A DNA stretch of 64,000 nucleotides from Neisseriaceae bacterium TC5R-5. GTDB taxonomy: Bacteria; Pseudomonadota; Gammaproteobacteria; Burkholderiales; Chromobacteriaceae. Shown piece after piece: positions 2,925 to 55,892 of this stretch. The stretch spans positions 189,500-253,499 of the forward strand of contig JACCFC020000001.1 in NCBI GenBank assembly GCA_020830965.2, given 5' to 3'. The notes below the pieces were generated by a model. That model worked only from the letters and a program-made list of their open reading frames with translations. It searched no databases and was not told the DNA's origin. Each line of letters begins with the position of its first letter. The stretch's first letter is position 1. Made by a program: the position numbers and the translations under genes.

Positions 2925-3866
2925 TTACAGCATGAAGTCTTTGGAGATGCCTTTGCGTCTTAAAATACGACGCAATTGTTCCAAACCTTCTATCTGTATT
3001 TGTCTCACTCGTTCTCTTGTGAGGCTGAGTGCGGCGGCTAGCTCTTCCAGTGTGCAAATTTCATAGCCATTGAGGCCGTAGCGACGTTCAATGACAAGTT
3101 TTTGTTTTTCGTTGAGCTGGCCCAGCCAGTCTTGAACAAATTGTTCTAGCTGACTGTTGTGTAGCTGGATTTCCGGCTCATCGTGCTGTTCATCGGGAAT
3201 GGATTCGCCTATTGATAGCATAGGGTCAATATCAAGAGGAGCATCCAGCGAGGCCATTCTTTCGTTGAGGTTCATAATTTTACGAACGTCTTCAACAGGT
3301 TTACCCACGGACTCTGCAATCTCTTCCAGTGAGGGTTCGCGGCCCATTTTGCTTTCCAAATGGCGCGAGGCACGTAAATAGACGTTCAGCTCTTTGATGA
3401 CGTGTACTGGTAGGCGTATGGTACGCGATTGGTTCATGATCGCGCGTTCTATGCTTTGTCGTATCCACCAAGTGGCATAGGTGGAGAAACGGAAACCGCG
3501 TTCCGGATCAAACTTTTCCAGTGCATGCATCAGACCTATATTGCCTTCTTCAATTAGATCAAGCAGAGCTAGGCCTCGGTTGATGTAGTGTTTGGCAATA
3601 TTAACGACCAAGCGAAGGTTATGCTCAATCATACGTTGACGGGCTTCAAATTCGCCAGCAACAACACGCCTAGCCAGTGCAAGTTCTTCAACTGGGGTGA
3701 GCAGGGCATTGTTACCAATGTCGTTGAGATATATCTGGGTGACATCAGCAACTTCTTCGTAGGCTGGTTGAGACTCGCTGGCCTCTTCTGTCTCGGCTAC
3801 AAGCTCTTCTGCATGCTCTTCGTCGAGAGTTTCGCTTTCGTCAAGTGTGTCTAGTTCGTTACTCAT
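2925..3866 (-). CDS. rpoS: RNA polymerase sigma factor RpoS
   Basis: A 313-residue sigma-70 family protein, the stationary-phase/general-stress sigma factor. After an acidic N-terminus (about 1-40) comes region 1.2 ([11 protein letters not shown]), region 2 with [12 protein letters not shown] and the -10 recognition helix ([19 protein letters not shown]), region 3 ([10 protein letters not shown]), and region 4 with the helix-turn-helix [10 protein letters not shown] near the C-terminus. It has no region 1.1, which separates RpoS from RpoD. It lies 50 bp downstream of nlpD, the usual arrangement; in enterobacteria the main rpoS promoter is inside nlpD, so a promoter within the upstream gene is likely here too. 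ATG start at 3866. Confidence 0.96.
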
Positions 3867-13492: not shown

Positions 13493-14128
13493 CTAGCGGA
13501 TATGAACCACCTTGTGCGTCTGTACCGATAAGCGCCATTGTGGATGCGCCATACAGTAAGCAATCGCCGCTTGGGTATTGGCGGCTAATGCTGGGCCATC
13601 CATTGCTTGTAGATAAAAACGATCAAAATCCAGATGGGCGACGCTTTCTGGTAGTTGCCCTGCTTGTGGATAGACCAGTTTTAGTTCGTTGCCACGGCGC
13701 TGTACCAGCTCGCTACCGGCTTTGGGGCTGACACAAATCCAGTCCAAGCCGGCGGGTGCAGGTAACGTGCCATTGGTTTCTACGGCGACTTCAAAGCCAC
13801 GGGCATGTAGAGCATCAATCAAGGCGGTGTCCAGTTGCAGCAGCGGCTCCCCACCGGTACAAACTACATAAGGTTTGCCTGCCGTTTCTGCCGGCCATTT
13901 ATCGGCAATACATTGCGCTAGTGCATCTGCCGTTGCGAACTTGCCGCCATCCGGGCCGGTGCCGACAAAATCAGTATCGCAAAACTGGCAGATGGCCTGG
14001 CTGCGATCCTGTTCGCGGCCAGACCATAAATTACAGCCGGCAAAGCGGCAGAATACTGCGGCGCGTCCTGCTTGGCTGCCTTCTCCCTGCAAAGTATAAA
14101 AAATTTCTTTAACGGTGTAGTTGCTCAT
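13493..14128 (-). CDS. queE: 7-carboxy-7-deazaguanine synthase QueE
   Basis: A 211-residue radical SAM enzyme that contracts 6-carboxytetrahydropterin to 7-carboxy-7-deazaguanine, the third step to preQ0 and queuosine. The cluster motif is CX14CX2C (from CNLWSGREQ to CQFCDTDF), the expanded form described for the Burkholderia-type QueE rather than CX3CX2C. The substrate-site motif VVCTGGEPLLQLD and VETNGTLP follow. Start at the ATG at 14128 with GGAG about 9 bases upstream; the TTG before it is less likely. It lies 18 bp after queD and is last in queC-queD-queE. Confidence 0.95.
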   Translation of the reverse strand: MSNYTVKEIFYTLQGEGSQAGRAAVFCRFAGCNLWSGREQDRSQAICQFCDTDFVGTGPDGGKFATADALAQCIADKWPAETAGKPYVVCTGGEPLLQLDTALIDALHARGFEVAVETNGTLPAPAGLDWICVSPKAGSELVQRRGNELKLVYPQAGQLPESVAHLDFDRFYLQAMDGPALAANTQAAIAYCMAHPQWRLSVQTHKVVHIR

Positions 14129-14146
14129 CAAAGGTGTCTCCAGGCT

Positions 14147-15166
14147 TTAGAGCAAAGGCCAGCGCATATTGTCATGAAACATCAGTGATACGCCGCTGTG
14201 GGCGTATTCCAATAGATCAATGCGACTTAGCTCCGGCAGTTGTGGCGATAACTGGGCATGTACCCATTCGCTGACGGCTAGGCTATTGCCTTGACGGATA
14301 CCCCTGAGCTTATCCAGCGGATTGTGATCAAGCTGGCGGTAGATGGGTTTGAAACGGTCTTTGACATCACCAAAGTCCAGTAGCCAGCCCATGGTCTGGT
14401 CTAGCTGGCCGCTTAACATCAGTCGGATCAGATAGCTGTGGCCGCTATAGCGACCATCGCTATCAAACAGCAGCGCACTTTCAAAACGCTGCTCCTTCCA
14501 GATGCGGAAGCGTTGCCCGTCAAACTGACTGCCCGCGCTATGGGTTTCGCGTACCTCAACCCAGGCTAGAGCAGGTAGACGCTCTTGCAGTTGTTGGTAG
14601 AGCCAATGGGCCAGCACTTCGCTGGTCGGGTTCTCCAGGCCGGGAATCGCATTCAGATACTGATGGTGTAATTGCGCATGCAATGGTGCCCAGGCGGCTT
14701 CCAGCGCCAATTGGCTGCTATGTGTTGCATCAGCCACCAGACGCACCCCAAAGCCATGTCCGTGCAGGCGGCCACATTTATGACCGGCAGGCACTTTGGG
14801 TAGTTGGTGAGCGGCTTCAAATTGCACCTGAATCCATACCAAAGCCTGTGCGCCTTCCAGCATAATGCCACGTTGCGCGCTACTTTGTAGGCTCAGCGCA
14901 GTTTGGCAGGGCAGGGTGGTATGTAGATGTTGCGCCAGTGCCAGGTCATCACAACGTGTTAAGTGCTGATGAATAGCGGCATAGTTAAAGGGTTCTACTG
15001 CGCTGGCGATAGCCGCGTCCAGTTCGCTTTGTTCAATCAGATGCGTGGGCGCACGTACCGCCAGCTGAAAGCTGTGCCCATGTAGTTGGGCGGTACGATC
15101 TTGTGCGCCGTTCACTTGGCGCGCCGCTTCAAAGCGGCTGCCAGCCAGCCAGTAGGAGGCGTGCAT
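14147..15166 (-). CDS. queD: Three-domain 6-carboxytetrahydropterin synthase-like protein (QueD)
   Basis: A 339-residue protein, against about 120 for E. coli QueD, built from three T-fold (PTPS-like) units at about 1-110, 113-222 and 223-339. Unit 2 is the canonical one: FEAAH (His120), Cys131, LHGHGF (His135, His137), LNAIPGLENPTSE and VEVRET. Its catalytic Asp position is His (LHHQYLN). Unit 1 keeps LHGHSF but has FEAAR. Unit 3 lacks most zinc ligands (SGHSY only) but holds DFGDVK (264-269) and the LDH pair (279-281) that unit 2 has lost. The enzyme turns dihydroneopterin triphosphate into 6-carboxytetrahydropterin. Start at the ATG at 15166, chosen because upstream codons lie inside queC. 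Between queC and queE. Confidence 0.88.
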   Translation of the reverse strand: MHASYWLAGSRFEAARQVNGAQDRTAQLHGHSFQLAVRAPTHLIEQSELDAAIASAVEPFNYAAIHQHLTRCDDLALAQHLHTTLPCQTALSLQSSAQRGIMLEGAQALVWIQVQFEAAHQLPKVPAGHKCGRLHGHGFGVRLVADATHSSQLALEAAWAPLHAQLHHQYLNAIPGLENPTSEVLAHWLYQQLQERLPALAWVEVRETHSAGSQFDGQRFRIWKEQRFESALLFDSDGRYSGHSYLIRLMLSGQLDQTMGWLLDFGDVKDRFKPIYRQLDHNPLDKLRGIRQGNSLAVSEWVHAQLSPQLPELSRIDLLEYAHSGVSLMFHDNMRWPLL

Positions 15167-15168
15167 GC

Positions 15169-15861
15169 TTAAGCTCCTTGCTGGCAGCGCAGCACCAGCG
15201 GATCCGGCACGCCAGCATCGGCAAAGCCTTTGGCACGTAGCTGGCAAGAGGCACAGTGTCCACAGGGTGGCACGGCGCCGTTATAGCAAGTATGGCTCCA
15301 GGCCAATGCGGTCATTGCGCCGACTTGCTGTGCGAGGGTGATGGTTTCTGCCTTGGATAAATGCATGAGCGGGGCATGCAGCACGATTTCGCTATCCATG
15401 CCCAGGCGCAAGGCCAATTCTAGTGCTTTCAAGGTATTCTCGCGGCAATCGGGATAGCCGGAATAGTCGGTCTGTGCTACCCCGGTAATCAGATGGCGCG
15501 CGCCTAACTGGTAAGCCAGCGCGGCGGCAAAGCTTAGAAAAATCAGATTGCGGCCAGGCACAAAGGTATTAGGCAGCGTCTGGTCATCGCGCTGGCCGGT
15601 TTCCGGGGCGATAGTGCTATCGGTTAAGGCATTGCCGCCAATGGCTGCAAAGGTATTGATAGGCAGCACGATGTACGGCACGCCGGCCAGCCGGGCAATT
15701 TTGTCGGCACAGTCCAACTCGACACGGTGGCGCTGGCCATAGTCAAAAGTGACTGCGCTGACATGGCCCTCACCAAATTGCTGCAAAGCCCAGTACAGGC
15801 AGGTAGTGGAATCCTGGCCGCCGGAAAGGACGACCAAGGCTTTTTCTGTGGTTTTAGTCAT
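15169..15861 (-). CDS. queC: 7-cyano-7-deazaguanine synthase QueC
   Basis: A 230-residue ATP-dependent enzyme converting 7-carboxy-7-deazaguanine to preQ0. The PP-loop is VVLSGGQDSTTCLYW near the N-terminus; the zinc site is the Cys cluster CYNGAVPPCGHCASC near the C-terminus. PNTFVPGRNLIFLSFA and DYSGYPDCR are also family motifs. It leads the queC-queD-queE operon, with queD starting 2 bp after its stop. A CGCCCGG/CCGGGCG hairpin lies in its leader at about 15905-15929; I saw no convincing preQ1 riboswitch. Cytosolic, normal length. Confidence 0.97.
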   Translation of the reverse strand: MTKTTEKALVVLSGGQDSTTCLYWALQQFGEGHVSAVTFDYGQRHRVELDCADKIARLAGVPYIVLPINTFAAIGGNALTDSTIAPETGQRDDQTLPNTFVPGRNLIFLSFAAALAYQLGARHLITGVAQTDYSGYPDCRENTLKALELALRLGMDSEIVLHAPLMHLSKAETITLAQQVGAMTALAWSHTCYNGAVPPCGHCASCQLRAKGFADAGVPDPLVLRCQQGA

Positions 15862-51128: not shown

Positions 51129-51204
51129 TCCCTGATAGCTCAGTTGGTAGAGCGACGGACTGTTAATCCGCAGGTCGCAGGTTCGAGCCCTGCTCGGGGA
51201 GCCA
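51129..51204 (+). tRNA. tRNA-Asn (GTT), copy 1
   Basis: A 76-base tRNA including encoded CCA. Acceptor stem TCCCTGA pairs with TCGGGGA, the D-loop has AGCTCAGTTGGTAGAGC, the anticodon GTT is at 51162-51164 (position 34-36), and the T-arm has GGTTCGAGCCC. Identical to the copy at 55817. Own promoter upstream and terminator downstream. Confidence 0.98.
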
Positions 51205-53693: not shown

Positions 53694-53862
53694 CGGGGGT
53701 TGCGTATGAGCCATGGCTTAAGCTGTGCCGCAACCCCGCGAAACACAGATAAGTCATGGGTCTTGCCAAACAAGTATTTTGTTGTATGTACCATGGCTGC
53801 TGCCAAGTGTGTTGATACATACCAGCGCTATTATGCGCCGAGGCTACTCCCCCAAAACGGAA
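53694..53862 (-). ncRNA. yybP-ykoY manganese riboswitch
   Basis: Read on the minus strand, the leader contains GGGGGAGTAGCC near 53860, the internal stem GTATGTA/TACATAC with TCAACACACTTGG between, and then GGCAAGACCCATGACTT near 53755, the conserved pieces of the yybP-ykoY (RF00080) aptamer that binds Mn2+. Downstream, CGGGGTTGCG (complement of 53729-53738) can pair with CGCAACCCCCG (complement of 53694-53704) right before the start codon, forming a hairpin near the ribosome-binding site. Mn2+ binding would be expected to free translation of the exporter. Recognised by eye; no covariance search was possible. Confidence 0.85.
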
Positions 53863-53866
53863 TCGG

Positions 53867-55816: not shown

Positions 55817-55892
55817 TCCCTGATAGCTCAGTTGGTAGAGCGACGGACTGTTAATCCGCAGGTCGCAGGTTCGAGCCCTGCTCGGGGAGCCA
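55817..55892 (+). tRNA. tRNA-Asn (GTT), copy 2
   Basis: A 76-base tRNA with encoded CCA, identical base for base to the copy at 51129. Promoters and terminators of the two copies are not identical, so this is not a recent long duplication. The 270 bp after its terminator up to cysM hold no gene I can support. Confidence 0.98.

Follow-up and report, generated by a model that had tools for sequence, protein, structure and literature searches.

The window, the whole 64,000-nucleotide stretch of Neisseriaceae bacterium TC5R-5 DNA that was analyzed, carries queC, queD, and queE in tandem on the reverse strand. The queC gene (15169..15861) matches PF06508 with 248.2 bits and TIGR00364 with 238.4 bits, and the queE gene (13493..14131) matches TIGR04508 with 365.5 bits at a cut-off of 240. 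Between them, translation gives a single open frame of 339 amino acids plus stop (14147..15166, also on the reverse strand). From its profile matches, its open reading frame, and three predicted T-folds, it is assigned as a trimodular QueD (6-carboxytetrahydropterin synthase). The preliminary description of this DNA had called the queC-D-E operon intact, and with queC upstream and queE downstream the genes are indeed tightly packed. Two bases separate the end of queC from the start of queD, and the queD stop codon is followed by the start of queE after 15 bases (TTG) or 18 bases (ATG). The list of open reading frames also holds a longer alternative queD frame of 366 amino acids, which begins at a TTG and overlaps queC. 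The ATG at 15166 was chosen as the queD start, since close homologues match from residue 1 onward.

A profile search of the TC5R-5 genome (148 contigs, completeness 100) identifies this as the sole PF01242 locus. A separate canonical queD would have cast doubt on this protein as the working enzyme, but the search gave no PF01242 match anywhere else. FolE, QueF, QueA, and TGT are encoded elsewhere in the genome. Together with the neighboring queC and queE, they lend contextual support to a role of this QueD in the preQ0/queuosine pathway, which leads to the tRNA base queuosine. The QueF (L189, G000:C127:59074-59631) matches its own family twice within a single frame of 287 amino acids, the second time below the curated cut-off; given these two matches, TC5R-5 appears to have two T-fold enzymes of one pathway that are each in a fused form. 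In another part of the window, a manganese riboswitch (yybP-ykoY) is matched on the reverse strand at 53732-53866 (49.4 bits, gathering score 45). Two equal-scoring tRNA matches lie 4.7 kb apart on the forward strand (51129-51201 and 55817-55889) and may be copies of one gene bordering an inserted stretch.

Three T-fold units in the QueD chain

Three stretches of the TC5R-5 QueD match the Pfam family PF01242 (PTPS; 125.8 bits, cut-off 22.4). Three stretches also match the NCBIfam QueD equivalog TIGR03367, whose score of 112.9 bits is above the cut-off of 89.25. The broader subfamily model TIGR00039 gives 102.2 bits, below its own cut-off of 125.5, and no match to the QueF family was obtained in Pfam or NCBIfam at E values up to 1. 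The AlphaFold2 model (pLDDT 94.4, pTM 0.91) contains three T-folds, each of the three units being predicted as β-β-α-α-β-β. The three T-fold units claimed at the outset are therefore seen in the profile matches as well as in the predicted structure, and a prediction with fewer than three T-folds did not appear.

The borders of the units were placed by hand from the strands of the predicted model, and all coordinates below refer to the reverse strand. Unit 1 (residues 1–106; 14849..15166) is a degenerate T-fold that contains H29-G-H31, with Arg16 at the first-ligand position and Asn61-Tyr62 at the Asp-His position. Unit 2 (residues 107–219; 14510..14848) contains H120, C131 (codon 14774..14776), H135, H137, the sequence NPTSE at 179–183, and E207. 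Its Asp-His position is degenerate and is occupied by His167-His168 (codons 14663..14668). Unit 3 (residues 220–339; 14150..14509) contains H243, GWLLDFGDVK at 260–269, and Asp280-His281 (codons 14324..14329), and the first zinc ligand and the Cys are absent. Every residue that had been named from the sequence beforehand is present, namely H120, C131, H135, H137, and H167 in unit 2, DFGDVK (264–269) and D280-H281 in unit 3, and H29-G-H31 in unit 1.

With the roles that these residues are taken to have, unit 2 bears the QueD/PTPS-I signature C131-GRL-H135-G-H137 together with H120 and E207. The Asp-His pair is also present in the chain, but in unit 3 (D280-H281) and not in the zinc-bearing unit 2 (H167-H168). 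Members of QueD/PTPS-I make 6-carboxytetrahydropterin from dihydroneopterin triphosphate, have one T-fold per chain, and assemble as homo-oligomers. The three T-folds found here mark the TC5R-5 QueD as a variant, and the family profiles impose no unit count. According to a passage of PMC5041015, COG0720 comprises several readily confused functions, and CxxxHGH is the signature of PTPS-I (QueD) as opposed to the ExxHGH motif. Unit 2 has CxxxHGH, without the Glu of ExxHGH.

Distribution and residue conservation of three-unit QueD

Within the family, 60 of 61 genomes have a match, and in 59 of the 61 the three-unit QueD is encoded as one frame. One genome (G046, 84% complete) has no match, and another (G044, 80% complete) has the three-unit gene as two adjacent pieces. 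There, the frame is split at the junction of units 2 and 3, near position 3151 of locus L044 (G044:C3:682147-682156). A natural two-gene form was rejected, as the second part has no visible start codon near the junction, and the split is probably a sequencing error or a frameshift. A second match in G037 lies in a frame that reads as old-yellow-enzyme-like from its sequence alone, and it was taken as a chance match.

At the level of the order, matches with an E value of 0.001 occur in 73 of 300 genomes. Of these, 46 have a frame of 332 amino acids or more with an E value below 3e-56; they were counted as three-unit by reading the rows of matches, the unit 1 match being partial in some. In the class, 201 of 369 genomes match at 0.001, and 19 of the matches are full length (1.9e-108 or less). 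Below these 19 there is a gap, followed by matches of about 1e-42 that cover unit 2 alone, and the class contains single-unit as well as three-unit QueD. In the phylum, 14 of 398 genomes match at 1e-60, and 11 of these are listed outside the class. One protein from outside the class (L195) is identical to that of a Magnetococcales metagenome-assembled genome (MAG; L179). A scan of named genomes gave at least 592 pattern matches, at least 560 of which are relatives, and the best 80 were kept. All of these 80 proteins have 324 amino acids or more. They come from Chromatiales (20), Burkholderiales (20), Neisseriales (14), Nitrosomonadales (2), Methylococcales (2), Thiotrichales (1), Magnetococcales (1), and Nitrospinales (1), and 19 are without an assigned order. 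A binning error may account for the Nitrospinales case, which comes from a MAG. The preliminary description had proposed a survey of the fusion in other Neisseriales; the same form is found there, and it reaches much wider than that. Three-unit QueD is an old, widespread form.

The gene surroundings were compared at 100 loci, consisting of 20 loci, L044 among them, and the 80 kept from the scan of named genomes, with some genes taken twice. At 71 loci, queC precedes and queE follows the gene on the same strand. The others have queE downstream only (21), queC upstream only (2), queC downstream only (1), or neither (5), in counts that are affected by contig ends cutting some flanks and by diverged queC or queE genes that may be missed. 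In 50 genomes that were selected for carrying the three-unit form and counted by reading the rows, PTPS matches fall only within one three-unit frame in 47. Two genomes (G075 and G678) have an extra PTPS match, which lies in a 180- or 190-amino-acid frame. A further genome (G160) carries two three-unit QueD genes (C1:2377977-2379002 and C1:2324983-2326065), and one copy could be free to change.

A quick tree was calculated from 26 proteins cut into units and 12 single-domain proteins, for which the program warns of few columns and one long branch. Units 1, 2, and 3 form one group each, with support of 100, 80, and 99, and the single-domain proteins form a group with support of 73. This grouping is as expected if a single fusion had preceded the spread.

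The alignment used for residue counts contains 153 distinct three-unit proteins of 173; L001, L002, L044, and L079 were set aside, and 11 single-domain proteins were kept apart. Invariant residues (153/153) in unit 2 are H120, C131, H135, H137, P180-T-S-E183, E207, and T208. Those in unit 3 are W261, D264, K269, D280, and H281, and those in unit 1 are F12, H29, G30, and H31. Position 167, the Asp position of unit 2, is occupied by His (55), Asn (48), Asp (39), Gln (9), or Glu (2), and position 168 is His in 107 proteins. Both Asp and His are kept in unit 2 of 29 proteins. The first-ligand position is never His in unit 1 (Arg 120, Cys 30, Val 2, Leu 1) or in unit 3 (Val 64, Leu 53, Met 12, Arg 8, Thr 8, Ile 6, Lys 1, Gln 1). 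The preliminary description stated that unit 3 lacks zinc ligands. This goes too far, since only the first ligand is missing in every protein; His occupies the third position in 152 proteins (H243 in TC5R-5) and the second in 91 (Ser241 in TC5R-5). With the catalytic spacing, a Cys precedes HGH in unit 1 of five proteins, TC5R-5 QueD not being one of them, and in unit 3 of none. Positions 61 and 62 in unit 1 are Asp in 120 and Tyr in 140 proteins, respectively. At the anchor Glu position, compared in 52 proteins cut into units, unit 1 has Ser (47), Gly (4), or Ala (1), and unit 3 has Glu in 33.

In 11 of 11 single-domain controls, one chain carries the three zinc His, the Cys, the Glu, and the Asp-His pair. 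The pattern of the three-unit proteins recurs at nine same-phylum loci outside the class, of which eight are new and the ninth is identical to L179, and none of the nine keeps the Asp-His pair in unit 2. The corresponding residues are also invariant in a 32-protein alignment headed by a Thiorhodococcus protein and taken from the same loci. Because it is invariant in 153 distinct homologues, the residue pattern is far beyond chance. Decay to a pseudogene was rejected because of the invariant key residues and the open frame in 59 of the 61 family genomes. As a separate observation, residue 16 (codon 15119-15121 of the window) and residue 33 have the highest co-variation score of all pairs that are six or more residues apart. 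Forms with a Cys at position 16 could bind a second metal together with H29 and H31.

A putative composite active site

The protein had been suggested to be a single-chain pseudo-trimer with shared, asymmetric sites, and the presence of three units and the complementary invariance of units 2 and 3 support this. As the complementarity lies between unit 2 and unit 3, it suggests one complete site per chain and not several shared ones. We assign a probability of roughly 0.8 to a single composite site, in which the zinc ligands, the Cys, and the Glu come from unit 2 and the Asp-His pair from unit 3, either within one chain or between chains. TC5R-5 queD would then encode the working QueD of the bacterium in the form of a covalent pseudo-trimer. 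Its three T-fold units would replace the three separate subunits that jointly contribute the strands of one barrel in the canonical enzyme, and three equivalent active sites would have become one after the fusion. Unit 2 would give the zinc ion site (H120, H135, and H137), the catalytic C131, and the pterin anchor (E207 and NPTSE). Unit 3 would give Asp280-His281, the pair that is thought to come from the neighboring subunit in the canonical enzyme, and the half-sites of the two units would lie close together. Unit 1 would chiefly close the barrel. A head-to-head stack of two chains is probable and would give two sites, compared with six in the canonical hexamer.

In rat PTPS, the zinc ligands, Cys42, and Glu133 are reported to come from one subunit and His89 from the adjacent subunit of the same trimer. 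The split of the invariant residues in three-unit QueD equals this reported split between subunits. A passage of PMC7546909 describes canonical PTPS as two trimers joined head to head, with zinc sites between three adjacent monomers, and Burgisser 1995 has the phrase "intersubunit catalytic triad" in its title.

The direction of pairing was analyzed by pooled co-variation between the site region of unit i and the α1/Asp-His region of unit i+1 or i−1 in the 153 proteins (Neff about 91). Single residue pairs seemed to be dominated by ancestry and were left out of this question. The i/i+1 pairs score 0.86, 0.98, and 0.85 and the i/i−1 pairs 0.73, 0.67, and 0.70 (means of 0.90 and 0.70), and pairs within a unit score 0.80, 0.88, and 1.15. 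Of 529 overlapping window pairs, 7 attain the difference of 0.198 between i+1 and i−1, and 26 attain it in absolute value. The top-ranking windows cover the same two regions; among the windows listed, the six with the most negative differences combine these regions with their roles exchanged. The difference is positive in 12 of 12 subsamples and drops to 0.10 in the shorter and the longer halves of the proteins alike. In the 63 shorter proteins, which include TC5R-5 QueD, the unit 2–unit 3 score is below that of unit 2–unit 1 (0.50 versus 0.84). In the 90 longer ones, unit 1–unit 2 is below unit 1–unit 3 (0.91 versus 0.96). Control windows at the bottom of the barrel give a smaller difference (0.763 versus 0.735), and no signal was detected in a barrel-closure control that paired β4 of unit 3 with β1 of unit 1. 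Taken together, pooled co-variation hints at a pairing of unit i with unit i+1.

Two counts speak against the composite site: the 29 of 153 proteins that keep Asp-His in unit 2 could use that pair, and an additional PTPS gene occurs in 2 of the 50 three-unit genomes. The site could also be completed in trans, the Asp-His pair of unit 3 reaching across the interface between trimers to serve the unit 2 zinc site of the partner chain; a lone chain would then be inactive and only the dimer would work. The co-variation over the 153 proteins, although weak, is cyclic (1–2, 2–3, 3–1), as for neighbors in one barrel, and His89 of rat PTPS is said to come from within the same trimer. These points count against the trans arrangement, but residue conservation is equally compatible with it, and it would agree with a dimer of trimers that has its sites between three adjacent monomers (PMC7546909). 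We consider the trans arrangement unlikely, and it is included in the estimate for the composite site. Unit 2 might instead work alone, with the Asp-His position of its own or of a neighboring chain's unit 2, so that the fusion would be only structural. The full residue set in unit 2 of the 29 proteins and the frequent His at position 168 (107/153) fit this explanation. However, the Asp is lost in 114 of the 153 proteins, including TC5R-5 QueD, and D280-H281 is kept in all of them, which makes it quite improbable.

Another explanation pairs the zinc site of unit 2 with Asp/Asn61-Tyr62 of unit 1. Tyr would replace His, and D280-H281 would have another purpose beside the HGH of unit 1. The conservation of Tyr62 and Asp61 (140 and 120 of 153) is in line with this, as is the stronger co-variation of the unit 2 site with unit 1 in the 63 shorter proteins. 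Yet no complete site would exist anywhere in the chain, the invariance of D280-H281 would go unexplained, and the means over all 153 proteins (0.70 for i/i−1, 0.90 for i/i+1) point the other way, so we regard this pairing as highly improbable. Least probable of all is that the gene encodes another pterin enzyme of COG0720, from the folate or biopterin branch, or a decayed copy, and not QueD. The functions in COG0720 are easily confused (PMC5041015), but unit 2 has the CxxxHGH of PTPS-I without the Glu of ExxHGH, the gene lies between queC and queE, and the open frames in 59 of 61 family genomes argue against decay. The composite site of units 2 and 3 is thus the most likely arrangement in the trimodular chain. 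A rather unlikely addition to it is that the two sites without catalysis were retained for another function. The HGH of unit 1 (153/153, with a Cys at the first-ligand position in 30) would then combine with the GH of unit 3 into a second pocket, for a metal or a pterin, that regulates the single catalytic site. If so, the second pocket would make this an allosteric single-chain QueD and not merely a simplified one.

Comparison with known T-fold enzymes

The solved chains of single-unit QueD (TIGR03367; 4ntk from E. coli and 2oba from P. aeruginosa) have about 115–140 amino acids, compared with 339 here. Single-domain QueD has all catalytic residues in one chain, whereas in trimodular QueD they are shared among three units, and two of the three sites are incomplete. 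A search of solved-chain sequences matched only single-unit relatives of TC5R-5 QueD, although a missing match proves nothing in such a search. To our knowledge, none of the 50 entries listed in the comparison has three T-folds. No description of a multi-unit QueD was found in the literature searched, a search outside which most subscription papers lie. Trimodular QueD is a real, conserved QueD variant.

The protein looks like a clean natural case in which a homo-oligomer with inter-subunit sites becomes one chain, and the sites can divide labor and lose symmetry. The three units can still be told apart, and one class contains both forms of QueD, so the path from a symmetric trimer to one composite site is traceable and testable. 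The 29 proteins with Asp-His still in unit 2 are possible intermediates. There is also a warning for annotation, since a best-single-domain approach can hide a composite site.

Tandem T-folds are also present in urate oxidase and GTP cyclohydrolase IB, which have two units and not three, catalyze other chemistry, and share 6–11% identity with trimodular QueD. Bimodular QueF of the Vibrio cholerae type resembles trimodular QueD in that it belongs to the same pathway, has tandem T-folds in one chain, and divides its catalytic elements. A passage of PMC5372742 describes these elements as split between two T-folds and joined in one interdomain site. It differs in having two units, in carrying out nitrile reduction, and in having no central tunnel, the latter as stated in the same passage (PMC5372742). 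Bimodular QueF is another family with a parallel outcome. With this precedent and the tandem T-folds of uricase, a composite site in trimodular QueD would be understandable rather than shocking.
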